In this document: positions 1 to 19,167 of the stretch, piece by piece | How positions within the stretch are numbered: the stretch's first letter is position 1 | Layout: every line of letters begins with the position of its first letter | Assembly (NCBI GenBank): GCA_021927905.1 | Contig: BLLK01000075.1 | Span: 1-64,000 of the forward strand | DNA: 64,000 nt | Direction: 5' to 3' | From: Chaetoceros tenuissimus | Lineage: Eukaryota; Bacillariophyta; Thalassiosirophyceae; Chaetocerotales; Chaetocerotaceae | The notes under the pieces: model-generated | The model's input: only the letters and a program-made list of their open reading frames with translations | Told to the model about the DNA's origin: nothing | Databases searched by the model: none | Translations under genes and position numbers: made by a program

Positions 1-3000
1 ATTCAATCTCTGCTCTTCATCATCCAATACCATCATAATCCAATCTAAAACATACACCACACAATCTTCCTTTCTCTCTCTGCTATCTCCATCCATCATC
101 ATCTATTCTATTATATTCTACCTCCCATAAACCAAAACCCTACCTCTCAAAATTTCACTCTTCTATCTTCCTCCTCACATTCACACTTCTTCTATCAACA
201 CTACGGTTAGCTTACACTTACTCCACTCACCTGCTTCTCATTCAATCTCTGCTCTTCATCATCCAATACCATCATAATCCAATCTAAAACATACACCACA
301 CAATCTTCCTTTCTCTCTCTGCTATCTCCATCCATCATCATCTATTCTATCATATCCTACCTCCCATAAACCAAAACCCTACCTCTCAAAATTTCACTCT
401 TCTATCTTCCTCCTCACATTCACACTTCTTCTATCAACACTATGGTTAGCTTACACTTACTCCACTCACCTGCTTCTCATTCAATCTCTGCTCTTCATCA
501 TCCAATACCATCATAATCCAATTAAAAACATACACCACACAATCTTCCTTCCTCTCTCTGCTATCTCCATCCATCATCATCTATTCTATCATATTCTACC
601 ACCCATAAACCAAAACCCTACCTCTCAAAATTTCACTCTTCTATCTTCCTCCTCACATTCACACTTCTTCTATCAACACTACGGTTAGCTTACACTTACT
701 CCACTCACCTGCTTCTCATTCAATCTCTGCTCTTCATCATCCAATACCATCATAATCCAATCTAAAACATACACCACACAATCTTCCTTTCTCTCTCTGC
801 TATCTCCATCCATCATCATCTATTCTATTATATTCTACCTCCCATAAACCAAAACCCTACCTCTCAAAATTTCACTCTTCTATCTTCCTCCTCACATTCA
901 CACTTCTTCTAACAACATTACGATTAGCTCACACTTACTCCACTCACCTGCTTCTGCTTCTCATTCAATCTCTGCTCTTCATCATCTCACCAATAACGTC
1001 ATCATATTTCAATCTATACCAACCACACAAATCTTCCTTTCTCTGTCTGCTATCTCCATCCATCATCATCTATTCTATCAAAATACTACATCCCTTCAAT
1101 AAACCAAACCCTATCTCTCAAAATTTCACTCTTCTATCTTCCTCCTCACATTCACACTTCTTCTAACAACATTACGATTAGCTCACACTTACTCCACTCA
1201 CCTGCTTCTGCTTCTCATTCAATCTCTGCTCTTCATCATCTCACCAATAACGTCATCATATTTCAATCTATACCAACCACACAATCTTCCTTTCTCTGTC
1301 TGCTATCTCCATCCATCATCATCTATTCTATCAAAATACTACATCCCTTCAATAAACCAAACCCTATGTCTCAAAATTTCACTCTTCTATCTTCCTCCTC
1401 ACATTCACACTTCTTCTAACAACATTACGATTAGCTCACACTTACTCCACTCACCTGCTTCTGCTTCTCATTCAATCTCTGCTCTTCATCATCTCACCAA
1501 TAACGTCATCATATTTCAATCTATACCAACCACACAAATCTTCCTTTCTCTGTCTGCTATCTCCATCCATCATCATCTATTCTATCTTATACTACATACT
1601 TTCAATAAACGAAACCCTATCTCTCAAAATTTCACTCTTCTATCTTCCTCCTCACATTCATACTTCTTCTAACAACATTACGGTTAGCTCACACTTACTC
1701 CACTCACCTGCTTCTCATTCAATCTCTGCTCTTCATCATCCAATAACATCATACTCCAATCTTTAACATACACCCAATCTTCCTTTCTCTCTCTGCTATC
1801 TCCATCCATCATCATCTATTCTATCTTATACTACATACTTTCAATAAACGAAACCCTATCTCTCAAAATTTCACTCTTCTATCTTCCTCCTCACATTCAC
1901 ACTTCTTCTAACAACATTACGGTTAGCTCACACTTACTCCACTCACCTGCTTCTCATTCAATCTCTGCTCTTCATCATCCAATAACATCATACTCCAATC
2001 TATAACATACACCCAATCTTCCTTTCTCTCTCTGCTATCTCCATCCATCATCATCTATTCTATCTTATACTACATACTTTCAATAAACGAAACCCTATCT
2101 CTCAAAATTTCACTCTTCTATCTTCCTCCTCACATTCACACTTCTTCTAACAACATTACGGTTAGCTCACACTTACTCCACTCACCTGCTTCTCATTTAA
2201 TCTCTGCTCTTCAACATCCAATAACATCATTACCCAATCTATAACATACACACAATCTACCTTTCTCTCTCTGCTATCTCCATCCATCATCATCTATTCT
2301 ATCTCATACTACATCCTTTCAATAAACGAAACCCTATCTCTCAAAATTTCACTCTTCTATCTTCCTCCTCACATTCACACTTCTTCTAACAACATTACGG
2401 TTAGCTCACACTTACTCCACTCACCTGCTTCTCATTCAATCTCTGCTCTTCATCATCCAATAACATCATACTCCAATCTATAACATACACCCAATCTTCC
2501 TTTCTCTCTCTGCTATCTCCATCCATCATCATCTATTCTATCTTATACTACATACTTTCAATAAACGAAACCCTACCTCTCAAAATTTCACTCTTCTATC
2601 TTCCTCCTCACATTCACACTTCTTCTAACAACATTACGGTTAGCTCACACTTACTCCACTCACCTGCTTCTGCTTCTCATTCAATCTCTGCTCTTCATCA
2701 TCTCACAAATAACGTCATCATATTTCAATCTATACCAACCACACAATCTTCCTTTCTCTGTCTGCTATCTCCATCCATCATCATCTATTCTATCAAAATA
2801 CTACATCCCTTCAATAAACCAAACCCTATCTCTTAAAATTTCACTCTTCTATCTTCCTCCTCACATTCACACTTCTTCTAACAACATTACGGTTAGCTCA
2901 CACTTACTCCACTCACCTGCTTCTGCTTCTCATTCAATCTCTGCTCTTCATCATCTCACAAATAACGTCATCATATTTCAATCTATACCAACCACACCAT

Positions 3001-6000
3001 CTTCCTTTCTCTGTCTGCTATCTCCATCCATCATCATCTATTCTATCAAAATACTACATCCCTTCAATAAACCAAACCCTATCTCTTAAAATTTCACTCT
3101 TCTATCTTCCTCCTCACATTCACACTTCTTCTAACAACATTACGGTTAGCTCACACTTACTCCACTCACCTGCTTCTGCTTCTCATTCAATCTCTGCTCT
3201 TCATCATCTCACAAATAACGTCATCATATTTCAATCTATACCAACCACACAATCTTCCTTTCTCTGTCTGCTATCTCCATCCATCATCATCTATTCTATC
3301 AAAATACTACATCCCTTCAATAAACCAACCCCTATCTCTTAAAATTTCACTCTTCTATCTTCCTCCTCACATTCACACTTCTTCTAACAACATTACGGTT
3401 AGCTCACACTTACTCCACTCACCTGCTTCTGCTTCTCATTCAATCTCTGCTCTTCATCATCTCACAAATAACGTCATCATATTTCAATCTATACCAACCA
3501 CACAATCTTCCTTTCTCTGTCTGCTATCTCCATCCATCATCATCTATTCTATCAAAATACTACATCCCTTCAATAAACCAAACCCTATCTCTTAAAATTT
3601 CACTCTTCTATCTTCCTCCTCACATTCACACTTCTTCTAACAACATTACGGTTAGCTCACACTTACTCCACTCACCTGCTTCTGCTTCTCATTCAATCTC
3701 TGCTCTTCATCATCTCACAAATAACGTCATCATATTTCAATCTATACCAACCACACAATCTTCCTTTCTCTGTCTGCTATCTCCATCCATCATCATCTAT
3801 TCTATCAAAATACTACATCCCTTCAATAAACCAAACCCTATCTCTTAAAATTTCACTCTTCTATCTTCCTCCTCACATTCACACTTCTTCTAACAACATT
3901 ACGGTTAGCTCACACTTACTCCACTCACCTGCTTCTGCTTCTCATTCAATCTCTGCTCTTCATCATCTCACAAATAACGTCATCATATTTCAATCTATAC
4001 CAACCACACAATCTTCCTTTCTCTGTCTGCTATCTCCATCCATCATCATCTATTCTATCACAATACTACATCCCTTCAATAAACCAAACCCTATCTCTTA
4101 AAATTTCACTCTTCTATCTTCCTCCTCACATTCACACTTCTTCTAACAACATTACGGTTAGCTCACACTTACTCCACTCACCTGCTTCTCATTCAATCTC
4201 TGCTCTTCATCATCCAATAACATCATACTCCAATCTATAACATACACCCAATCTTCCTTTCTCTCTCTGCTATCTCCATCCATCATCATCTATTCTATCT
4301 TATACTACATACTTTCAATAAACGAAACCCTATCTCTCAAAATTTCACTCTTCTATCTTCCTCCTCACATTCACACTTCTTCTAACGACATTACGGTTAG
4401 CTCACACTTACTCCACTCACCTGCTTCTCATTCAATCTCTGCTCTTCATCATCCAATAACATCATACTCCAATCTATAACATACACCCAATCTTCCTTTC
4501 TCTCTCTGCTATCTCCATCCATCATCATCTATTCTATCTTATACTACATCCCTTCAATAAACGAAACCCTATCTCTCAAAATTTCACTCTTCTATCTTCC
4601 TCCTCACATTCACACTTCTTCTAACAACATTACGGTTAGCTCACACTTACTCCACTCACCTGCTTCTGCTTCTCATTCAATCTCTGCTCTTCATCATCTC
4701 ACCAATAACGTCATCATATTTCAATCTATACCAACCACACAAATCTTCCTTTCTCTGTCTGCTATCTCCATCCATCATCATCTATTCTATCAAAATACTA
4801 CATCCCTTCAATAAACCAAACCCTATGTCTCAAAATTTCACTCTTCTATCTTCCTCCTCACATTCACACTTCTTCTAACAACATTACGATTAGCTCACAC
4901 TTACTCCACTCACCTGCTTCTGCTTCTCATTCAATCTCTGCTCTTCATCATCTCACCAATAACGTCATCATATTTCAATCTATACCAACCACACAAATCT
5001 TCCTTTCTCTGTCTGCTATCTCCATCCATCATCATCTATTCTATCAAAATACTACATCCCTTCAATAAACCAAACCCTATCTCTCAAAATTTCACTCTTC
5101 TATCTTCCTCCTCACATTCACACTTCTTCTAACAACATTACGATTAGCTCACACTTACTCCACTCACCTGCTTCTGCTTCTCATTCAATCTCTGCTCTTC
5201 ATCATCTCACCAATAACGTCATCATATTTCAATCTATACCAACCACACAAATCTTCCTTTCTCTGTCTGCTATCTCCATCCATCAGCATCTATTCTATCA
5301 AAATACTACATCCCTTCAATAAACCAAACCCTATGTCTCAAAATTTCACTCTTCTATCTTCCTCCTCACATTCACACTTCTTCTAACAACATTACGATTA
5401 GCTCACACTTACTCCACTCACCTGCTTCTGCTTCTCATTCATTCTCTGCTCTTCATCATCTCACCAATAACGTCATCATATTTCAATCTATACCAACCAC
5501 ACAAATCTTCCTTTCTCTGTCTGCTATCTCCATCCATCATCATCTATTCTATCAAAATACTACATCCCTTCAATAAACCAAACCCTATCTCTTAAATTTC
5601 ACTCTTCTATCTTCCTCCTCACATTCACTTCTTCTAACAACATTCACGGTTAGCTCACACTTACTCCACTCACCTGCTTCTGCTTCTCATTCAATCTCTG
5701 CTCTTCATCATCTCACAAATAACGTCATCATATTTCAATCTATACCAACCACACAATCTTCCTTTCTCTGTCTGCTATCTCCATCCATCATCATCTATTC
5801 TATCAAAATACTACATCCCTTCAATAAACCAAACCCTATCTCTTAAAATTTCACTCTTCTATCTTCCTCCTCACATTCACACTTCTTCTAACAACATTAC
5901 GGTTAGCTCACACTTACTCCACTCACCTGCTTCTGCTTCTCATTCAATCTCTGCTCTTCATCATCTCACAAATAACGTCATCATATTTCAATCTATACCA

Positions 6001-8335
6001 ACCACACAATCTTCCTTTCTCTGTCTGCTATCTCCATCCATCATCATCTATTCTATCAAAATACTACATCCCTTCAATAAACCAAACCCTATCTCTTAAA
6101 ATTTCACTCTTCTATCTTCCTCCTCACATTCACACTTCTTCTAACAACATTACGGTTAGCTCACACTTACTCCACTCACCTGCTTCTGCTTCTCATTCAA
6201 TCTCTGCTCTTCATCATCTCACAAATAACGTCATCATATTTCAATCTATACCAACCACACAATCTTCCTTTCTCTGTCTGCTATCTCCATCCATCATCAT
6301 CTATTCTATCAAAATACTACATCCCTTCAATAAACCAAACCCTATCTCTTAAAATTTCACTCTTCTATCTTCCTCCTCACATTCACACTTCTTCTAACAA
6401 CATTACGGTTAGCTCACACTTACTCCACTCACCTGCTTCTGCTTCTCATTCAATCTCTGCTCTTCATCATCTCACAAATAACGTCATCATATTTCAATCT
6501 ATACCAACCACACAATCTTCCTTTCTCTGTCTGCTATCTCCATCCATCATCATCTATTCTATCAAAATACTACATCCCTTCAATAAACCAAACCCTATCT
6601 CTCAAAATTTCACTCTTCTATCTTCCTCCTCACATTCACACTTCTTCTAACAACATTACGGTTAGCTCACACTTACTCCACTCACCTGCTTCTGCTTCTC
6701 ATTCAATCTCTGCTCTTCATCATCTCACAAATAACGTCATCATATTTCAATCTATACCAACCACACAATCTTCCTTTCTCTGTCTGCTATCTCCATCCAT
6801 CATCATCTATTCTATCAAAATACTACATCCCTTCAATAAACCAAACCCTATCTCTTAAAATTTCACTCTTCTATCTTCCTCCTCACATTCACACTTCTTC
6901 TAACAACATTACGGTTAGCTCACACTTACTCCACTCACCTGCTTCTCATTTAATCTCTGCTCTTCAACATCCAATAACATCATTACCCAATCTATAACAT
7001 ACACACAATCTACCTTTCTCTCTCTGCTATCTCCATCCATCATCATCTATTCTATCTCATACTACATCCTTTCAATAAACGAAACCCTATCTCTCAAAAT
7101 TTCACTCTTCTATCTTCCTCCTCACATTCACACTTCTTCTAACAACATTACGGTTAGCTCACACTTACTCCACTCACCTGCTTCTCATTCAATCTCTGCT
7201 CTTCAACATCCAATAACATCATTACCCAATCTATAACATACACACAATCTACCTTTCTCTCTCTGCTATCTCCATCCATTATCATCTATTCTATCTCATA
7301 CTACATCCCTTCAATAAACGAAACCCTATCTCTCAAAATTTCACTCTTCTATCTTCCTCCTCACATTCACACTTCTTCTAACAACATTACGGTTAGCTCA
7401 CACTTACTCCACTCACCTGCTTCTGCTTCTCATTCAATCTCTGCTCTTCATCATCTCACAAATAACGTCATCATATTTCAATCTATACCAACCACACAAT
7501 CTTCCTTTCTCTGTCTGCTATCTCCATCCATCATCATCTATTCTATCAAAATACTACATCCCTTCAATAAACCAAACCCTATCTCTCAAAATTTCACTCT
7601 TCTATCTTCCTCCTCACATTCACACTTCTTCTAACAACATTACGATTAGCTCACACTTACTCCACTCACCTGCTTCTGCTTCTCATTCAATCTCTGCTCT
7701 TCATCATCTCACCAATAACGTCATCATATTTCAATCTATACCAACCACACAATCTTCCTTTCTCTGTCTGCTATCTCCATCCATCATCATCTATTCTATC
7801 AGAATACTACATCCCTTCAATAAACCAAACCCTATCTCTCAAAATTTCACTCTTCTATCTTCCTCCTCACATTCACACTTCTTCTAACAACATTACGGTT
7901 AGCTCACACTTACTCCACTCACCTGCTTCTGCTTCTCATTCAATCTCTGCTCTTCATCATCTCACCAATAACGTCATCATATTTCAATCTATACCAACCA
8001 CACAAATCTTCCTTTCTCTGTCTGCTATCTCCATCCATCATCATCTATTCTATCAAAATACTACATCCCTTCAATAAACCAAACCCTATGTCTCAAAATT
8101 TCACTCTTCTATCTTCCTCCTCACATTCACACTTCTTCTAACAACATTACGGTTAGCTCACACTTACTCCACTCACCTGCTTCTGCTTCTCATTCAATCT
8201 CTGCTCTTCATCATCTCACCAATAACGTCATCATATTTCAATCTATACCAACCACACAATCTTCCTTTCTCTGTCTGCTATCTCCATCCATCATCATCTA
8301 TTCTATCAAAATACTACATCCCTTCAATAAACAAA
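1..8335. repeat. Satellite array of 34 monomers, two size classes
   Basis: Tandem repeat whose monomers start at 1, 240, 479, 718, 963, 1217, 1470, 1717, 1956, 2195, 2434, 2679 and so on to 8192; the last is cut at about 8332. Class A monomers are 239 bp. Class B monomers are 253-254 bp and carry an extra CTGCTT and a block containing TAACGTCATCATA. Read left to right, the order is A4 B3 A4 B6 A2 B9 A2 B4. Subtypes recur in distant blocks, for example an A form with CATTACCC at 2195, 6948 and 7187. The first A monomer has 6 G in 239 bases on the + strand. No reading frame of 60 codons lies inside, so it is noncoding. Telomeric, centromeric or other role is not shown. Confidence 0.97.
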
Positions 8336-8482
8336 ACTCAGTTTGTATCTAAAGATAAAGGTAGAGATGGTGGTAATGTCATCAAGAAGGTTGATACTAA
8401 AGATCAAATATCTGATATCTTCACAAAAGGTCTTGCTCACTTGCAGTTTTCTACTTTGAGAAAGATGCTGACAGGATGGTAA
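8336..8482 (+). mobile_element. Ty1/copia retrotransposon fossil: 3' end of pol (RNase H tail)
   Basis: A short fragment translating to the C-terminal end of a Ty1/copia polyprotein, including the hallmark DQISDIFTKGL segment followed by LRKMLTGW and the natural stop. Such elements (CoDi lineages) are common in diatoms. Only this end is present: the satellite begins directly upstream, and no convincing LTR could be delimited downstream. Treated as a broken, truncated fossil of unknown age. Confidence 0.85.
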
Positions 8483-8759
8483 TAATGTAATTTTTAATGT
8501 TTGTCTGCAATCTCATTCAAATATTCATTTTGCTTGAGAGAGAGTGACATGAAAGTGACTTTCTTGAGCCTCTGTATGTTGTTGGTAAGAAGTGATAGCT
8601 GGGATCCATTGCTTTTGATGATTTATTTGGTGTCAATCACTCTGTGCTTGAGAGAGAGAGAGAGAGATGAAGTTGAGTCTTTACATCTATCTTTAATTCA
8701 AAGCAACTAATAGTAATAAAGGAATTTACTGTTACAATCTATCTATCAATACAATCATC
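8483..8759. other. Unassigned stretch downstream of the copia fragment
   Basis: Contains a (GA)n run near 8649-8668 and two similar TTGAGAGAGAG segments at about 8533 and 8647. It could include remains of the copia 3' untranslated region or LTR, but no TG...CA boundaries or second copy are visible here. No gene is supported. Confidence 0.4.
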
Positions 8760-9352
8760 AACTGATTCAATGGAAAAGTCACCTTCTGCAGTTGTCATTC
8801 AGTTCCCTACAAGCTTCACTAACATTTATTCCTTGATCAAATAACTCTGATATGATTTCCAGTGCCTCCTGGGATTATATGAACTAACTCCCACATACTA
8901 TCAGAAGCTATGATGAGGAACTATCTTAGAATGAAATCTTTAGAAATACTATGTTTAACAAGCCAGTACCAAATATTTCTACAACAGGCTCTACAATTAC
9001 TGTACATGCTTCAATGCATGATCTCCAATCGACCTAGATATGGTTAGTCCAAACTGTGAGCAATTCACATCTGACCAAATTCTAGCAGGTAAATTTGGGT
9101 TGTTTGGAAGTGTAATGTACCCTCCAGAATTAATATATCTGTTTCTTTTAGATTCAATTTGGACATTCTGGTCTCTGGACAAGTCAAATCGGCTTTAGAC
9201 TCATCACTTCCTATTGCTTTTCTATGGCCAATGACCACCCTTGAATCTCCTATTTTAGGATTCCAAAGGCTGATTGGTGATGTCACAAGCATCAAGGATT
9301 GCTGAAAGTAAATGTTCCATGTATGTGGAGGCTGTGAAGAATACATACTCAA
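8760..9352 (-). pseudogene. PP2C-type protein phosphatase relic
   Basis: Minus-strand pieces in different frames together match the order of PP2C (PPM) motifs. KIGDSRVVIG with following DLT lies near 9270-9190, then GGYI, then LTISRSIGDHALK near 9050-9005. After a frame change come VIVEPVVEI and IASDSMWELV, matching the family's ASDGLWD segment. An ALEIISELFDQG helix ends the match. PP2C enzymes remove phosphate from Ser/Thr using Asp-bound metals. The N-terminal DGHGG motif was not found and several frame breaks are needed, so this is a decayed, 5'-truncated host gene. It lies between the copia fossil and the minisatellite. Confidence 0.75.
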
Positions 9353-9492
9353 TCAGTATACATTGCAAAAAGAAGTTCAGTAAATGACTTCTACTACATC
9401 AATTATGTTCAATATATGACATGTTGAAGGGATCAGGACCCAACAGATTTTTCTAGCAATTTAGTTTGACAAGAAGATGGGCTATATGGAGA

Positions 9493-9600
9493 CCTAACCC
9501 TAATCCCTTGCTATATAGACAAAGATGGGACCCAACCCTAATCCCTAGCTATATAGACGAAGATGGGACCTAACCCTAATTCCTAGCTACATAGTTGAAG
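9493..9600. repeat. 38-bp minisatellite, telomere-like, left of the transposon
   Basis: Three units start at 9493, 9531 and 9569 with a 38-bp period. Each begins with CCTAACCCTAATCCCTAG, which reads like degenerate CCCTAA telomere repeats. The third unit (to 9600) differs from the first two in its second half (ACATAGTTGAAG instead of ATATAGACGAAG). It matches the unit at 16635 on the far side of the transposon. A weaker partial unit precedes 9493. Confidence 0.9.
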
Positions 9601-9632
9601 GGAACCTAGTAAACATTGCTGGATCTCCCAAC
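9601..9632 (+). repeat. Left terminal inverted repeat of the transposon
   Basis: Begins GGAACCTAGTAAACATTG and ends CCCAAC. It pairs with the reverse complement of 16603-16634 with three mismatches. Similarity stops immediately after the CCCAACT on both sides, so the inverted repeat is short. Confidence 0.9.
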
Positions 9633-10642
9633 TTGACAAAAAAATTTTATATACTTATTAACTATTATGTTAAATGCCTCTCCAAAACATAACCATTTAG
9701 CTCAAAATCATAGGCAAATAGCTCAACTTTCCCAAAACATCTGTCATTGTTATTTCTCGTTTTCTTCATTTATCTGTTTGAAATTTTATTCGTGTCAAGA
9801 ATAAAAATTTGAACAACAGCAGCTTTTTCCGATTAATCACTATGATCATTATGATGTACGGTATGTGTGAAAGTTTCTTTCATGAGCTTCTTTCATTTCA
9901 CCTATTGGAAAATTCATTTAGAATAATACTCTTTCTTTGAGCTTGATACAATCAACTGTAATTGTATTTGTAGAAAACAAATTCTTACCATGATGTATGA
10001 TACTTTCAGTATTCCTTTTTTTCAAATGTAAACTAGCTCGGCAACTCCATTTTACAGTTTAGAAAAAAAGCATTTTGCGACTGATTTAATGATATCACCG
10101 GCTTTTACTCTAAGCACATTGTCCGTTTCTAATTATGATTTTTGTGTGAGCCTACACAAAAGCCATGACTTGTTTTTCATGGTTTCGATCTCTAGAAGAT
10201 TCAAATTCAAAGCTTTCAAAGTGAGAACTTATAGCAATGAAGTGATGTGTACTAGAATAAGCATAACTTTTCATCACGATGTTAGAGAAAGAGTTTGATG
10301 AGACATTTAAAAAGTTATGAGTTATGAGAGAGGTGTGTTTGTGCAACGATGTGTTTTTGTTCATGTGTTGTGTTACTGTTACGTCATATTCACCGTTTTG
10401 AAAATACCTTTTTAAATTAATGACACATCAAATTAAGCCTATTTAGCCTATTAACAAAAGACTACTAATAAAATTATTAGTCTATTAAATTATCATCTAT
10501 CTTACTATATACCACATAATTTTATGGGATAAGATCTAAAAACAACATATTTCAATTAAATTATTGATAAAATTAAAAGATGTAAAAACATAGTCATACT
10601 TAATCTAAAATTGTATTAATTTGCACCTCTTTTTTTTATCCA
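9633..10642. other. Transposon left arm, noncoding
   Basis: AT-rich leader of about 1 kb between the left inverted repeat and the first gene. Short open frames here (10089-10298 + and 10152-10364 -) show no protein-like composition or recognisable motif. The last 250 bases are very AT-rich and would hold the promoter of the + strand gene. Confidence 0.6.
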
Positions 10643-13199
10643 ATGTTCGAAGAAGGAAAAAAACACTTCTTCTACCATCCTCTTTTTCTCATAAAAAAGA
10701 AAACAAGTAATATGAACGGAAATAATAACAATGCCATGGGCAAACGTAGACGTCAAAGAGGTGGACAAGGTCTTACAAAGAAGATTCGTAGGGAAATAGA
10801 AGAACGCCGTGATAGAATGCGCAATTCGCAGTTTAAAAAACACTCTCATCGGCATCATCCCTATTCTCATTTTTCAAGAGACAATCGTGGAAAACAACAT
10901 GTGAGGAACTGCAACCAACATAATAACCAAAGTAAACGCCAACCTCACAAGAAAGAGCAATATGTGCGGAATTCGCAGTATAATAGGTACAAAAAACACA
11001 GGCAACACTGGAAAAAAAGTGAATTTAACTCACGTTCAAACATGTCTTATACATGCAGAAGAAACAACGAAAAGTATTATAACCCCAAAAATGGGAAGTA
11101 TGTGCGCTCTTCGCAGTCTTCTCAGTCATCTATCCACCATACTAAACCATCGTTTCATATGCGCTCATCGCAGTCTTATCACCATCAGTCAATCTTCCAT
11201 CATGATACTAAACCATCGATTCATACAGAGCAAAATTTTCACAACCCTTCTAAGTGTAACTCATTTCATTTAAAAGAAAAAAATAATATAAAGTACAATG
11301 CCGATCATAGAGAAGAATGTAATACCTTCAGGCCTACGAAATCGTTGGATCTTCTTAATATATCTCAAATCGGAACATTTGATATAGAAGGTTAGTTTTA
11401 ATTGACTTTGTTTACATTTTGTATCGGAAATTGTTATCTAACCTATCATCTTTTAGACGAAACAGAAAGAGAAGATATAGAATCATATCCAAATGAATCC
11501 CACCTGCTTAGAAACGATTTTGGCAGTTACCATCGATGCCAATACCACAGCAACTATAGTAATGATGTTACACAGGTTTTTGGTGTTCCATGAGTCGTGT
11601 ACTCTAGAAAATAAGCAAAGGTTTCCTAAATTTGTTTGTAATTGGATGTATAGCTGGACAAAGTCGACATGTGATTCCAGTGCTGAGTACGAAACTTCAA
11701 AGGAACTGCTATTGTCTTGGCTTGTAAGTGATGAAGTTATCACTCATATTTGTCCAATTGAGGTCTCTAGAATGATTATTACATGGATGCAAACGTCTGT
11801 GTTTCCACACGTGGCCGATTATGCATTTTATACGAGACGTACAGATGAGAATATGGAAAACAGTACGTGTTGTGCTATTGAAGGAACCCATAATGCGCTC
11901 AAACATAATGAGAACGCAGTCAAAAGAACAGATACTCTTCCGATTTATGTGAAGAAAGCTGTTGATTATGATCTGATGCGTTTAAAAAAAGTACAGACAA
12001 TGGCAGCAGAAAGAAAAGAAAAGACAAACCTATATGGATACGAGTGGGCCAATCATCTTTGTAATAAGGGATCGTTGTTGACGTATAATATAATTCAATG
12101 GAGTGAACACTATGTGTCCCAATTCTCAGGATGTGTAGATGGTTTGCCAGAGTTTGTTGTATTATGTGACGAGCAAACAGATGAGGATAGTCATATATTA
12201 AATGAGAATACTCTTGAGGCCAAGGGAAAGACAGTTGCTAATGAAAGCGACCATGTCCATGAAAAGTCTTATTCTATACCACGATCGTATCCCAAGTACA
12301 GACATTCTTGGAAGGTTCGATTAGTGAAACAAAATGGAGAATTTTCGTTAGTGTGTAATTGTATGTTGTTAAGAAGAGTGGGAATACCGTGTCATCATAT
12401 TCATACAGTGATGAAATATCATCTGAATGATTGGTTTTTTGGAGTGGACTGGTTTGATTACAAAGTTGAGTGGTGGAGGATTACCTATACATTGTGTTAT
12501 AAGCCTCCTGAGAATTTTACAGAGGATGAGAAGATATTGTTTGAAAAATTACTTCATTTAGCTGATAATGATTCGAGGTTAGGGATCCAGTTGAGACCAA
12601 AGAACAGCAGTAGTGTCGAGTCTTCTATCATGAAACATGAATGGGATTGTAATAAAAAATTTGGTATGTGTGTAGTGAATGGGGATTCTTTAGAACCTTT
12701 AGACGTTGTCACACAAGGTGCTAAATCTCGTTTGAAGAATTGGAAATTTGGAAAAGATGACGATGAAGTACCAAACAAAATGTTGGAAAGTAGAGTGATC
12801 GACTACTCTGAGGAGGCATCAAATATTGAGGTAAAAAAAGTTGTGCAATCATCTTTGACTCAACAGCGATGTAAAAAAGATGTACTCGATTTGGTATATG
12901 ATATTTGCGAGAAGGTTGAATTTGCAGAACATCCAGAGTACTTTGATAAGTTGAGAAAATCGTTAGATAGGTTACATACTGAATCTATCGACATCGCTAT
13001 GAAAGGTAAACTTCCAGTGGAAACAAATGTAATTAAAACGTTTGCAGGGGCAACTAGACATGGGCAACAACATACACAAACTAAAAGAGTTCATTCGTTT
13101 CATACGAAAAGTGAAAAAGCAAAAAAATCGAAGGGTAAACGAAAAACAAATACTAGTCCTCGAAGGGGTAAGAAGGTATTTAATATTACATCTCCATAA
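10643..13199 (+). CDS. SWIM-domain transposase-like protein (MULE-like)
   Basis: Exons 10643-11390 and 11512-13199 join in frame (G|AA, Glu), giving about 811 residues. The intron is 121 bp, GTTAGT...CTTAG. A second start at 10712 (Met24) is possible and fits better after a long T-run. Residues 30-245 are basic, His/Ser/Asn-rich, with recurring RNSQ/RSSQ motifs, perhaps for DNA binding. The C-terminal part has a block ending CAIEGTHNALKH, like the region around the last catalytic Glu of MULE transposases. It then has a SWIM zinc finger, CNC...GIPCHH (CxCx9CxH), the arrangement seen in MULE and FAR1 proteins. A Lys-rich tail follows. The full catalytic DDE triad could not be read with confidence, so activity is uncertain. 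It is the likely mobility gene of the element. Confidence 0.75.
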
Positions 13200-13332
13200 C
13201 ATAATGATTGTGAAATTTATCAACATTATTATTTTTTTCTCTATTTAAAATTACATGAAATGAAAATTATCAATGTTGTTTATTTGGTATTCTTATAATT
13301 AATCTTCTTTCTTGTTGAAATTCAGTACATAC

Positions 13333-14211
13333 TTACTCTTCTGTATTACCTTCAGTCTCATAAAGCGCACTGTGCATATAGTCCCAGTCACCTTGCTCCA
13401 CAGGATCAAGCATCATGTGAAAGAATGCCCTCATGTATAGATCAAAAAACTGATTTTCTTTAAGTTTTTTGTGAAAATCAAGTTTGTATGTTGCAATGAA
13501 GTTGTCCATCTCTTTGATGAGTTTTTTTAAGTCATCAGGATGGATGTAGGAGAAGGTTTTCTCCAAAGCGTTCCAGTTTCCTTCGACAAGGCTTCTTCTT
13601 TTGGAGCAAGTATAATAGAGTACAATGATCTCGTGTAGTGTCAACCCTTTACTGAGAACGTAGCGTTCTGGATTACTTTCAAAAGACTCGTATGACTTAC
13701 TATCCTCATCGAGGTTGAAAATAAGGAAGTTTTGGAGACGTTTGTTATTATTAGCCTTCATTTCCGCATTTAAAGCAGATCTAAAACATTGATGCTCTAA
13801 TTCCAAAAAGTCCAAGGAAAGAACTTTAGTGAATTGGGATGGATCAAGGACAGTGGTACGGTGAAGCATATTACGACTGAATAGAGGATGGTGGCCCTTA
13901 GTAAAGGTTGCATCAACCGAGATGCGTGACTCAATGTTAGCGAAATGGAGTCTCAGTTTTGCGATACAGTTATGGACAGTATCAGACCGAAACTGAGTCA
14001 ATAGTGGTAAAGAACCTTGCTTAAAATCAGTATTCCAGGAAGATGAAATGAGGTCGACAATTTGGTTTCTGATCAGAGTGTCATATTCCTCTTGCTCATT
14101 AGGACGATCGTCGACAGCAAGAAACACGTGATGATGAAGGTACTCTCCATTGTTGTTGGTCGCAGTAATCACAGGGTCGATGTAGTCAGTAATCTTTTGT
14201 TTTTTATTCAT
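13333..14211 (-). CDS. Transposon cargo protein, unknown function (292 aa)
   Basis: Single open frame starting MNKKQKITDY, with its stop 134 bases from the stop of the convergent SWIM gene. It is soluble, acidic at the C terminus and without signal peptide, membrane helix or zinc motif. A segment ISVDATFTKGHHPLF loosely recalls the first catalytic region of some DDE transposases, but no supporting second and third acidic motifs are evident. The composition is protein-like and the frame is intact, so it is probably expressed. I do not recognise the family. Its position inside the inverted repeats makes it cargo or an accessory mobility factor. Confidence 0.65.
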   Translation of the reverse strand: MNKKQKITDYIDPVITATNNNGEYLHHHVFLAVDDRPNEQEEYDTLIRNQIVDLISSSWNTDFKQGSLPLLTQFRSDTVHNCIAKLRLHFANIESRISVDATFTKGHHPLFSRNMLHRTTVLDPSQFTKVLSLDFLELEHQCFRSALNAEMKANNNKRLQNFLIFNLDEDSKSYESFESNPERYVLSKGLTLHEIIVLYYTCSKRRSLVEGNWNALEKTFSYIHPDDLKKLIKEMDNFIATYKLDFHKKLKENQFFDLYMRAFFHMMLDPVEQGDWDYMHSALYETEGNTEE

Positions 14212-14634
14212 GATGATTGTATTATGGAACTGTGGAATGAACTATTTCTGTTTGTAGAAGAACATAACTGTGTAGAAGCGCAGGCATGTTCTTTCGGTTA
14301 AAACAGGATTGTAAATATAAGACTTGAATCATATAAATTTTGGTAATTTTCTATTCATTTAATTGATAGACTGGATAATTTTAACAAGATATAGAAAATT
14401 CAACGCTCGAAGGCTAAACTAATTGTATTTTTTTCTGATTCAATAAAATTAGTCGTTGTTTTTTTTAACCCTACTGGTGCGGGAGATAATCAATGGTTCA
14501 GAGATTGTCTCTCTATGAAATGAGCAGTGTAAACACTATGAACTTCAACTAGAAGTGGTTGATAAAAACAATAGAGTTTTTCGGAATGTGTAAATTTATG
14601 TATTTAGATGGATCCATACAAATATGAATCGAAG
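14212..14634. other. Spacer between the two minus-strand cargo genes
   Basis: About 420 bases of AT-rich sequence upstream of the 292-aa gene and downstream of the three-exon gene. It should contain a terminator and a promoter, but no site can be pinned down. No gene is seen. Confidence 0.6.
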
Positions 14635-16452
14635 TTATTTCTTTCTTTTTTTTTTTAATGCGTCTAATGATGGTGTCTCAGACATTATATCAAACTGCAG
14701 AACGACTTTGATTAAAGCATCTTCAACTGGATGAAAAAACGGAAGCGTCTCTTTCGTATCTCTGGTTCTTTCATCTTTGATCTTCACAGCCTTCCTGAAA
14801 GTATATATTGACTCACGAATGTCGTTGAATACTGGAGGACGAGATGCTAGTCTATCAACAATACAATTCATTGGACGCTTTTGGTCACTTTTTTCATCAA
14901 AGTTTGGATATTTATCCAAAAACTCATTATTAGATGTGTCGAAAACAGTCTTTGCATAGTATAAAATCCGCCGGTTGAATGCTATGTAAAAAGAGTCTAT
15001 TTCTTTTTGAAGATCTAAGTATTTCTGTTGGTCGGATGAAGAAAAGTTAGGTGGGGGAACAGGCAGTATTTTGATCTTTGATTTGGTAGTTTCGTCGGGT
15101 TTCTTCGGGTTTGTGTCTTGGCTGTCGGTAGAGTTGACTGTTGAAACAAGCTGTCCTTGATTTTCAATTTGTTCTTTGGTTCCTCTGTAACCTTCAAGAT
15201 AGAACTGTCTATGGAATTCATATACTACCCACCATTCGTAAGGGGATGAGAGGGGAAAATCAGGACCTAGAACTTTACCAATTAAATCTAGGTTTTCTTC
15301 TTGACGAGTGAATTTGTAAAGGGTAATTACTGCGGCCATACAATTTACTATACGTTGATTGTAATGTTTCCATTTACGGGCAGGACGATATGTCGGAAAT
15401 GTTTCTGGGATTAGGATTTGTTCAAGATATGGGAACAGATTGGTCTTGATGAATTCCGTCAGAACACCTTTATCATTAGTAAGGGCTTCTATTCCTATTC
15501 CATTGAGAACAATGGGCTTCTTGAATTGATCATCCAAATCGTATTTACAATTGTCGGTGGATTGATCAAAAGTAGGTGTTCCTGTTTGGGATTGTTGATG
15601 AATCAAGAACAACTCTACTTCTTTGGAGACGTTGTCTTTCAATTGTTTCAATTGAGAATACTAGAAAATTGCAGTGATTAGATATTTTTACAGTATGAAA
15701 AATATATTAGATTTGAAACTTACATTCATCAATATTTGAGAGCAAATCAAGGCGGTGTTGGACTTGATTAGATGTTCAATGAAAGGTTTAAAGGGTTTGA
15801 TCGTATATTTGGAATCGAGAACATGCAGTAAAGATGAAAATACTTCTCTTTCAATTTGAGTCAAGATTTGATCTCTATTGAGAAACATTTCTTTCGTATT
15901 TTCATCTATAGATGAACGGATTGTATTTACTAAAGCATTGTGAGACGAAACTTGCTCTGTTTCGGTAACTTGCTCTGTTTCGGTAACGTTCTCGTCACTT
16001 TTTTCTCTGGACGGTGAATCTAGAACATTCGCTTTACGACCCAGTTGAGTATTATTCGGGTAGCTCATTACAAAACTGTCAAACTGTTCAGAAATAGACA
16101 GGCGGATCTTATTCATGACGGATTTCGCATAAAATTCACGTTCTTCAGATTCCTGAGACCCTGTTTTGTCTAGAAAACAAAAGTATTAGAAAATAATGAT
16201 CAGTGATTGCGATAAAGACAATATCCTATAAAATGATTTACCTTTTTCAGGAAGGATGCACTGGTATGGTCGAATAACGTTATGATCGATTGTAAGAAAT
16301 GCAGCATATACTTTTGAGATCGCGGAATTTGTGTCTGTATCTTCTGGGATAAACTCCTTATGATTGTCGGAGCGCAACTCGGTCATAAACGGCAAAGAGA
16401 TGGGTGAGTTATGGTCAGAATTCATGCTTCTAATGTTATTTGATGTATTCAT
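14635..16452 (-). CDS. Transposon cargo protein, three exons, unknown function (about 560 aa)
   Basis: Exons are 16452-16242, 16169-15724 and 15660-14635. Both introns are short (72 and 63 bp) with GTAAAT...CTAG and GTAAGT...CTAG borders, and all joins keep frame (PEK|DKTG and LMN|YSQLK). The product is hydrophilic, starts MNTSNNIRSMNSDH and contains a repeated TETEQV segment. It has a Trp/Tyr-rich middle (KWKHYNQRIVNCMAAVITLY and PYEWWVVYEFHRQFYLEGY) and ends in a Lys/Arg-rich tail (KKKRKK) that could serve as a nuclear signal. No known domain is recognised. It lies entirely within the inverted repeats, its start about 150 bases from the right end, so it travels with the element. Confidence 0.7.
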
Positions 16453-16602
16453 AATTATTATTGTAAATTATGGTTTAGGTAGCACGTAGTAAACTTACTG
16501 ATCTCTATGTTTTCGAGTATCGACTGAAAGAGGCGGTAAAAAGTTGAAAAGTTGGCGGGCTCAAATTCAACTGGGACTGATTCATATTTCCTTCCGTGAT
16601 GA

Positions 16603-16634
16603 GTTGGGGGATCCAGCAATATTTACTAGGTTCT
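16603..16634 (-). repeat. Right terminal inverted repeat of the transposon
   Basis: Reads GTTGGGGGATCCAGC on the + strand and ends ACTAGGTTCT. It is the reverse complement of 9601-9632 with three mismatches. It is followed without gap by the 38-bp minisatellite unit. Confidence 0.9.
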
Positions 16635-16672
16635 CCTAACCCTAATCCCTAGCTACATAGTTGAAGACGGGA
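16635..16672. repeat. Minisatellite unit on the right flank of the transposon
   Basis: One 38-bp unit starting CCTAACCCTAATCCC. Its first 32 bases match 9569-9600 with one difference, including the ACATAGTTGAAG variant absent from the other two left units. This makes it the direct-repeat partner of the left flank. Confidence 0.9.
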
Positions 16673-16830
16673 CTTAGGCCCCTCATTGCCTTTGGGGGCT
16701 TTTAAGGACTATTTTACAATCTATGAATCCATCGTCATTGGATTGAAAATACGACGAAATAGTCTTCTCGAAATTTGTCTCACAAACAAGTTTATCTTCA
16801 TAAACAATATCAATAAAATGTTTAATTCAT

Positions 16831-19167
16831 TTATGCTACTTCTGCATTCGCTAATCCAGATTTTGCTTTGCACTCTCCAGCGCTAGTCATGAACGGAATA
16901 CCCTTGTAAGTAGCAACACCGTCGTCATTCGTCTTTAAATCAGGAAAAACTGCATCCAAAATCTTCTTCTTTCCAATTTGATTTTCAGTTGCTGGCTCAC
17001 CATCATATCCATCAACTACAATTCGCTCTCCAATCTTTGCATCTGCTGGTGGCTCAACGAATTCCGTTGTATCCCCATTCGAAGCGCAAAGTACCATACC
17101 ATGCGATGGAAATCCTACCAATTTTCTTGATTTTAAATTTGTCAATACCAAAACCCGTTGCCCTTCTAAGTCTTCGAGCTTGTAATGATCCCGTAACCCC
17201 GAAGCAATTTGTCTAGGACCCGACTCTTCACCAATATCAATCTCCTCGCAAAACAATTTATCAGCCTCTTCGTGCTCCCATGCTTTTGTAATAACTCCGA
17301 CACGAATATCCAATCTACCTACGTCCTTCTCCAAAGGAACATTGTTCTGCTGCTTCTTTGGTTGCTGTTTCTGCTTTTGTTTCTGCTGCTTTTGCTTTTG
17401 TTGTTGTTTCTCCGCCTCTTCCCCTGGAACTTCAAATCTATGTAAAACAATTTGAGGTGCATCCATCTTCGTTCCCGAAACAAGTGGCCATGACTCTAAA
17501 TGCGCGAAAGTTCGCTCATCAGCAGGCACAGTCAATTGATCTAATATCTTGTTTGCAGAATCTGGAATAAGCGGTTGATACAAGATTCCGACATGACGCA
17601 AAGTCTCCATGAGCACATACAAAACAGTCGACATACGTTCCGGATCCGTTTTTTTCAAAGCCCAAGGCGCTTGAACATCAATATATTTGTTAGCATCCTT
17701 GACAAGATTAATCATGGTAGTAGCATACTGACTAATGGCTTGGTTAGCAATGTGTCCAGCAGCAATATCTCTGACAGACTTTGCATTTTCCAACATTTCA
17801 ACATCTTCGGGTAAGAATTCACCTGGAGTCGGTATCGATTGATCGCAATTCTTATAGACAAGTGTGCAAACACGATGAGCAAGGTTACCAAGTTCATTTG
17901 CGAGATTCGCATTGCATCTATAAACAAAGTTCAGATCGGAAAAGTCACCATCATTTCCAAAAGGCACTTCGGACATGAGAAAGAATCTAGTCGCATCAAC
18001 TCCGTATTTATCTACAAGTTCCACAGGATCAATAACATTCCCTAGCGATTTGGAAATCTTTTCTCCATCCTTGGTCCACCAACCATGTGCATACACACGC
18101 TTTGGAAGAGGCAAATCAGCTGCAAGCAAGAATGCAGGCCAATAGACAGCATGAAATCTAAGAATATCTTTTCCAACGACATGTAGAGCAGCCGGCCAAA
18201 ACTTTTCATAATCTTCTGAATTGTCTGAACCATATCCAAGCGCCGACATGTAATTTGCAAGCGCATCAATCCATACATACATGATATGATCTTCATCATC
18301 TGGAACAGGAACTCCCCATTTGAAACTAGTTCTTGAAACAGACAAATCACGTAAACCTCCCGAAACAAACGATTTGACTTCATTCAATCTCGATTTCGGC
18401 GCAATCATTTCCGGATATTCTTCATACATTTTCAATAATGGTTCTTCCATCGCTGACAATTTGAAAAAGTATGATTCTTCCTTTGCTACCCATTCCACTT
18501 CAGCTCCAGTGGGTGCTTTTCCATCAACAAGTTCGGATTCATTGTAAAAGCATTCGTCTCTGACGGAATACCATCCCGAGTATGTTCCTTTGTAAATGTA
18601 TCCCTTTTTGGTGAGTACTTTCCAAAGTTGCTATGATTAAAATAAGTCAGTACAATGAATAAAGACGACGATGTAATATCTCCTTTCACTCTTTCCATTT
18701 CTTGTTCTTACCTTGACAGACTCTTTATGTGCCTCATCGGTAGTCCTTACAAAGTAATCATTACTAATATTCATGACACCCAATAAATCTCTAAAACTCT
18801 GAGAAACTTCATTGACAAAATCTTGACATTCCATTCCTTTCTTGGCAGCAGACTGTTCCACCTTTTGTCCATGTTCATCAGTACCCGTCAAGAAGAAAAC
18901 ATCTCTTCCACTCAATCTCATGAATCTAGCAATGACATCACATGCTGTAGATGTATATGCGTGACCAATGTGTGGTTTATCGTTTACGTAATAGATTGGA
19001 GTTGTGATTTGAAAAGGACGTTCTCCATCATCGAATGCAGTCGAAGGTGTCGATGAGAAAAGAGAAGAAGAAGAAGTGATGGTCTTTCGTTGGAAAGAAG
19101 GAGTAAAGGCAGAAGAAGGAGACAGAGATGTCCATGCCAATAGACACGATACGATTGGAAACTTCAT
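16831..19167 (-). CDS. Methionyl-tRNA synthetase, plastid-type precursor
   Basis: Charges tRNA-Met with methionine. Exons are 19167-18712 and 18630-16831, joined SVK|QLWK across an 81-bp GTAAGA...ATAG intron, giving about 751 residues. Residues 1-22 form a signal peptide ending SPSSAFTP, the diatom plastid motif. A Ser-rich transit region follows. The Rossmann fold carries HIGH at 66-69 (PHIGHAYT) and KISKS at about 343-347. A Gln/Lys-rich linker near 560-580 leads to a C-terminal EMAPII/Arc1-type OB fold (about 590-700) that binds tRNA. Plastid targeting is inferred from the presequence; dual mitochondrial use is possible. Long, intact and confidently assigned. Confidence 0.95.

Follow-up and report, generated by a model that had tools for sequence, protein, structure and literature searches.

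The DNA analysed here, called the window below, is the first 64 kb (64,000 nucleotides) of contig C59 (820,580 bp) of the genome assembly of the diatom Chaetoceros tenuissimus, which comprises 41.0 Mb in 68 contigs. From the contig start the window holds, in order, a satellite array, a copia-like fragment and further repeats, the last of which bears telomere-like 38-bp minisatellite units with a Mutator-like element (MULE) among them (Table 1). The element is flanked by a 32-bp direct repeat, in which a sequence-only reading had seen either an exceptionally long target duplication or integration tied to the minisatellite unit. The explanation that we prefer, and consider probable, is that a MULE-type transposon entered a 38-bp subtelomeric array without target duplication and with a loss of 6 bp.

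The element, its genes and its target

Table 1. Features of the element and of its insertion site (positions in the window; aa, amino acids; ORF, open reading frame; TIR, terminal inverted repeat)
Feature	Position	Strand	Remarks
Dispersed repeat part carrying the minisatellite	9341-9600	+	C34:4447256-4447497 homologous at 83%; shorter or more diverged parts at C14, C36, C58 (two) and C13
Minisatellite unit u0, 38 bp	9493-9530	+	
Minisatellite unit u1, 38 bp	9531-9568	+	
Unit u2, first 32 bp (left direct-repeat copy)	9569-9600	+	Last 6 bp (A[C/T]GGGA expected) missing by the register argument
Mutator-like element, 7,034 bp	9601-16634	.	TIRs and abutting direct repeat
Left TIR	9601-9633	+	9602-9633 at 94% with 16602-16633; outermost G at 9601 also in the C29 relic
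ORF, 250 aa, basic	10643-11395	+	No Pfam family up to E 1
Transposase remnant, 568 aa	11493-13199	+	SWIM-type motif (CxC-x9-CxH) and IEGTH segment kept; DGD segment gone
Accessory gene 2, 292 aa	13333-14211	-	C21 element holds a homologue (26% over 208 columns, E 8e-18)
Accessory gene 1, 338 aa	14635-15651	-	C21 and C42 relatives have homologues next to the transposase
Short ORF, 142 aa	15688-16116	-	No convincing family
Short ORF, 88 aa	16186-16452	-	No convincing family
Right TIR	16602-16634	-	Outermost base unlike that of the left end
Unit u3, complete 38 bp (right direct-repeat copy and ACGGGA)	16635-16672	+	Array fades after CTTA

The inverted arms are 32 nt long, as the sequence-only reading had stated, and are complementary at 30 of 32 positions rather than the 29 it had counted (30/33 with the outermost base included). 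Both ends are abutted by the direct repeat (9569-9600 and 16635-16666), whose 32-bp length and single mismatch (31/32) agree with that reading; it is the top-scoring pair in a scan of 9000-10600 against 16000-17200. Searching the whole genome with the direct-repeat pattern, at up to 3 mismatches, gave three matches (both copies and one array unit on C34), and the reversed-pattern control gave none. No 8-11-bp duplication abuts the element ends; every repeat found there is the 32-bp one or a shorter or shifted form of it. The left terminus is supported by a relic at C29:704060 (214 bp, 81%), because homology begins there at the same GGAACCTA and the flank is unrelated. This relic is the only other known end of the window family and lies in non-minisatellite DNA, 198 kb from the contig end; its right end was found neither between 698000 and 716000 (fewer than 8 mismatches in 25) nor by pattern. 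The genome search yielded no second full, two-ended copy of the window element. Eight of 11 TIR pattern matches, with 3 mismatches each, were rejected because their number equals that of the reversed-pattern control (5+3), the other three being known ends. A subterminal imperfect palindrome of 41 bp is kept in both left ends (window 9775-9815, C29:704232-704273), and homology between the two fades right after it.

The element belongs to a three-gene MULE-like family, because the transposase and two opposite-strand accessory genes have homologues in relatives. The transposase ORF has three other matches in the genome, on C21 (44%), C42 (36%) and C29:667k (31%), and the two accessory genes occur in the same order in C21. 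The assignment to Mutator-like transposons with inverted ends, already proposed from the sequence, is supported by weak matches of the C29:667k and C21 relatives to the PF10551 profile and by the SWIM-type motif. PF10551 against the C29:667k homologue gave E 2.2e-4 and 22 bits (cut-off 27.6), the C21 piece E 0.0055 and 17.5 bits, and the profile search of the genome 25.9 bits at C29:669285, all below the cut-off; the window ORF itself has no Pfam match up to E 1. Positions C288, C290, C300 and H302 of the CxC-x9-CxH motif, which we take to be a SWIM zinc finger, are invariant in four of four aligned relatives. Opposite a gap in the window transposase, the C29 relative has 94 residues that include a CDGD segment, its DGD presumably containing the second catalytic Asp of the transposase. 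The window copy is very probably catalytically dead, because this segment is missing.

No homology was seen for the 250-aa ORF in tblastx comparisons with the C21, C29 and C42 relatives, and two scans of viral contigs and one of genome contigs confirmed no relatives. For the C21 relative (347995-355988), a candidate combination of a 9-bp duplication and an 8-bp inverted end was dropped because its score of 30.0 is too near random maxima: 14 random, partly overlapping pairs of window regions gave maxima of 28.5 (four pairs), 28.0 (one) and 24.5 (one), and none in eight. Candidate ends at C29:667k (6-bp ends, 8-bp repeat) and at C42 (6 and 7 bp) were weak. In the C21 element, an ORF at L013 6152-7663, which precedes the MULE-domain piece, weakly matches the PDZ domain (E 0.03, below the cut-off); this would be odd for a transposase.

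In the left flank, tandem repeats finder (TRF) reports a minisatellite at 9486-9594 with a period of 38 and 2.8 copies. The 38-bp unit holds CCCTAA words, so that the likeness of the target to telomere repeats, noticed earlier, stands. Exact matches to the variant half-unit CTACATAGTTGAAG are confined in the window to positions 9587 and 16653, and among 109 loci to the nine that include at least one of these places; its restriction to the two copies beside the element had likewise been read correctly. The carrier repeat is found in at least six other places (C34:4447256, C14:22738, C36:28334, C58:892386, C58:893175 and C13:1555385), each with 2-4 telomere-like 38-bp units. It looks subtelomeric because all seven places among the matches listed sit 2-28 kb from contig ends (C34 9.0 kb, C14 22.7, C36 28.3, C58 4.8 and 5.6, C13 2.0 and the window 9.5). 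The last unit at C14, C36, C58 and C13 ends after CTAGCTA and four more bases, which hints at a fixed end. The repeat on C58 is flanked by a satellite related (~85-88%) to the 253-bp satellite at the start of our window, and near the C34 array copy lies what we take to be a plastid-type Cpn60 gene with an apparent ANAFAP-like targeting motif.

The contig itself begins with 8.3 kb of this 253-bp satellite (window 1-8337; 33.6 copies, 95% match). At the array the 3' end of another element is cut off, consisting of a coding end and a long terminal repeat (LTR; 8338-8797), and the whole stretch has matches elsewhere in the genome at 81-88%. The LTR (~8545-8797) recurs at both ends of copies, for instance C14:1055605-1063146, and we read the element as copia-like from its sequence.

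Two comparison families in the same genome

Among 14 matches to PF10551 in the genome, eight belong to MULE-2 and two to MULE-3 (labels coined in this analysis), the others being the C29:667k relative, C62, C45 and C27. C62, with a like-scoring match at C45, represents a fourth MULE family; no convincing element ends were found at C62 within 7.5 kb. Judging by the transposase, MULE-2 is the nearer of the two comparable families to the window element: blastp of the C29 relative gave E 7e-5 and hhalign of A1 gave E 3.8e-5 (probability 71), against 0.92 and 0.33, respectively, for MULE-3.

MULE-2 comprises eight two-ended copies and one solo end, with 17 of 17 termini identical over 30 bp, and one copy (L067, C16:701698-708414) has a transposase ORF of 1,115 aa. 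An abutting target duplication is present in none of the eight two-ended copies. The longest perfect repeats lying within 3 bp of both ends measure 1-4 bp, with wrong pairings of flanks reaching 6 bp, and longer words common to paired flanks are no more frequent than in wrongly paired ones. Words of 8-10 bp (one mismatch) near the ends of five of the eight copies were discarded, since none abuts both sides and the flanks are no likelier to be alike than wrong pairings. As evidence against its long duplication, the sequence-only reading had named other copies, in unrelated targets, whose duplications are short or absent; such copies do exist in this relative family, but no second intact copy of the window family was found in the genome.

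Empty sites of MULE-2 were sought by searching the genome with joined flanks. The C47 copy, compared with five empty paralogues (two on C38, one on C34 and two on C29), replaces exactly 6 bp, the sides being otherwise aligned; the bases at this position are ATTAAT in four paralogues and AATAAT in one. For a second copy, C16:3412768, a paralogue is discussed below, and none was found in the genome for the other six (C16:701698, C14:1432357, C29:386952, C44:986169, C20:57542 and C41:11511). In three of the eight copies (C16, C14 and C20), the flank begins to match another dispersed repeat 8-22 bp from the element.

MULE-3 has 55-bp ends, a 1,073-aa ORF with a PF10551 match and a 214-aa ORF that reads like an Ulp1-type protease (L091 3437-8039, C14:2288936-2293538). 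Perfect 9-bp duplications flank three of its six two-ended copies (AGTTGAAGG, CTTTCAAAT and GGAAAATAC), and the count rises to four of six if a 4-bp shift in the right end is allowed at C14:541k, where the duplication is then 9-11 bp (CTCTCTAGCAG). Of the remaining copies, one has no duplication and a long one has its right end disturbed by another repeat. None of 30 wrong flank pairings reached 9 bp; three single-ended matches were left out. Such duplications are therefore detectable in this genome. The short non-autonomous copies of MULE-3 carry 9-bp duplications, and a partial copy lies on the contig of the window (C59:80263-81557).

Duplication or loss at the insertion site

The left flank of the element ends at position 32 of the minisatellite unit and the right flank begins at position 1. 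Because 38 - 32 = 6, an overlap of 32 bp in a 38-bp array has two readings: duplication of 32 bp, or loss of 6 bp between one unit and the next. An overlap of 70 bp is ruled out, as the flanks no longer agree past 32. Beyond the direct repeat, the right flank (GAAGACGGGACTTA) is identical to the unit (GAAGATGGGACCTA) at 12 of 14 positions. It thus runs on as a unit, so that u3 reads as complete and internal and the missing 6-bp end of u2 can be identified as A[C/T]GGGA. GTTGAAG had been considered as a unique flank, which would have proved duplication, and was dropped for the same 12/14 continuation.

The empty site would accordingly have read ...u1-u2-u3..., and, with the final 6 bp of u2 replaced by the element, the flanks would show the corresponding 32 bp of two adjacent units. 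In such an integration the stagger between the two strand transfers on the target would have the polarity opposite to the usual one, or else a flush cut would be trimmed by a set amount, and the bases between the joining points would be removed as flaps and not filled in. The window copy, which lacks the catalytic segment, may have used a transposase supplied from elsewhere, or may have decayed after insertion. This explanation is based on the element, its ends, the register of the units, the MULE-2 copies without duplication and the one exact 6-bp replacement among them. We infer that the window element follows the 6-bp rule of MULE-2 and that the variant half was already common to u2 and u3 when the element inserted; at C36, too, two adjacent units (GTAAATGAAG) have a variant half in common. 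A wider proposal, that SWIM-type MULEs of one clade in this diatom, among them the window family, lose a fixed 6 bp of their target on integration and do not duplicate it (by inverted stagger, or by flush cut and set trimming), is possible and is put forward tentatively.

Several observations weigh against a 6-bp loss. One array unit on C34 is 37 bp long, so that the register could be off by one. The five paralogues of the C47 site form two close groups and are not five independent witnesses. At the C16:3412768 copy, plain alignment with the paralogue C16:3401836 shows 10 bp missing and one mismatch; a loss of 6 would require a difference of one GTAC unit, and the GTAC tandem leaves the length uncertain. 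Between the window family and MULE-2 the relationship is remote, and most of the columns that match fall within the stretch missing from the window copy. The loss at the window element is drawn from the register only, because neither an empty allele nor a second two-ended copy was found in this assembly; the search for other inverted ends and empty sites that the sequence-only reading had suggested returned the C29:704060 left end with its unrelated flank but no empty site for the window element. The main limit is that the 6-bp rule is extended by inference from one clean empty site.

The main rival is a true 32-bp target-site duplication, in which the strands would be joined about three helical turns apart, the gaps filled and u2 duplicated. 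The repeat does abut both ends, and the variant half-unit is confined to the two copies beside the element. Moreover, u2 and u3 show a single difference in 32 positions, compared with 3, 5, 3, 3, 2, 9 and 3 in seven internal neighbour pairs (six pairs with a truncated last unit, at 7-10 differences, were left out), and this low divergence mildly favours a fresh duplication. We nevertheless judge it unlikely, since a 6-bp loss gives the same signature, all eight MULE-2 copies lack an abutting duplication, MULE-3 makes ones of about 9 bp in three or four of six copies, and the published range for MULEs is 8-11 bp (PMC6446971). In addition, the equality 32 = 38 - 6 would have to coincide with the clean 6-bp loss at C47 (about 1 in 38, an estimate). 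An ordinary 8-11-bp duplication, followed by rearrangement of the array or a small deletion at one end, would conform to that range and to the 9-bp duplications of MULE-3, yet whole-unit gain or loss keeps the register and cannot turn a 9-bp overlap into 32, so that an extra indel is needed. It would have to be a deletion of about 15 bp starting exactly at the last base of the element, and both termini look intact; we hold this course of events to be improbable.

Two further explanations concern the array itself. Specificity of the element for minisatellite or telomere-like repeats would agree with the position of its sole two-ended copy, and MULEs that target microsatellites have been published (MuTAnT, PMC4486113). 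A single insertion, however, cannot show a preference, and the second left end, at C29:704060, lies outside any minisatellite and far from a contig end; the suggested tie to the minisatellite unit thus loses ground, and we regard specificity as very improbable. Finally, the two ends may stem from separate events: two elements, each in its own copy of the array, would have recombined ectopically. The arrays are dispersed near contig ends, and exchange is common near chromosome ends. This course requires two array insertions of a family for which one full copy and one end fragment were found, and of all the explanations considered here we give it the least credence.

Comparison with known systems

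The standard mark of a DDE transposon is duplication of its target site, and insertions are recognised by testing for it. If a family loses a set number of target bases, annotation tools would miss or misread it, and the geometry of strand transfer would become a direct biochemical question. The present case shows that a tandem-repeat target can make a small deletion resemble a duplication of record length. Bacterial elements of the IS1202 type and IS1634 make long duplications and would be a precedent for ~30 bp or more; they belong to a different superfamily, and the evidence on the window element points away from duplication. Among titles and abstract openings of the open-access papers searched, no DNA transposon with a set target deletion turned up, MULEs included.

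The window element resembles the MULE superfamily (PF10551) in the weak matches of the C29:667k and C21 relatives, the IEGTH segment, the SWIM-type region and the inverted ends, and its 32-bp TIRs are within the 14-500 bp given for MULEs (PMC6446971). It differs in having no 8-11-bp duplication, and the window copy in lacking the DGD segment and a Pfam match. With MuTAnT, the Medicago MULEs found in TA microsatellites (PMC4486113), it shares a tandem-repeat target that hides the fate of the target; MuTAnT elements, however, are described with 9-bp duplications at imperfect-array sites and a clear preference, neither of which is shown for the window element. There is also a likeness in description to the 'MULE-Diatoms' (group 37 in Table 1 of Dupeyron et al. 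2019, PMC6446971), which have a SWIM motif and a diatom host; on target-site duplication (TSD) their entry reads 'No TSD and not indicated'. These differ, as far as descriptions can be compared, in their TIRs of 123-124 bp and single ORF, against 32-bp TIRs and two further conserved genes in the window family, and their description in that source does not mention a target deletion. The TSD entry fits the window element if the 32-bp repeat represents two array units (none of the eight MULE-2 copies has an abutting duplication), and a fixed loss of 6 bp, if true, would explain why diatom MULEs are listed without a TSD.

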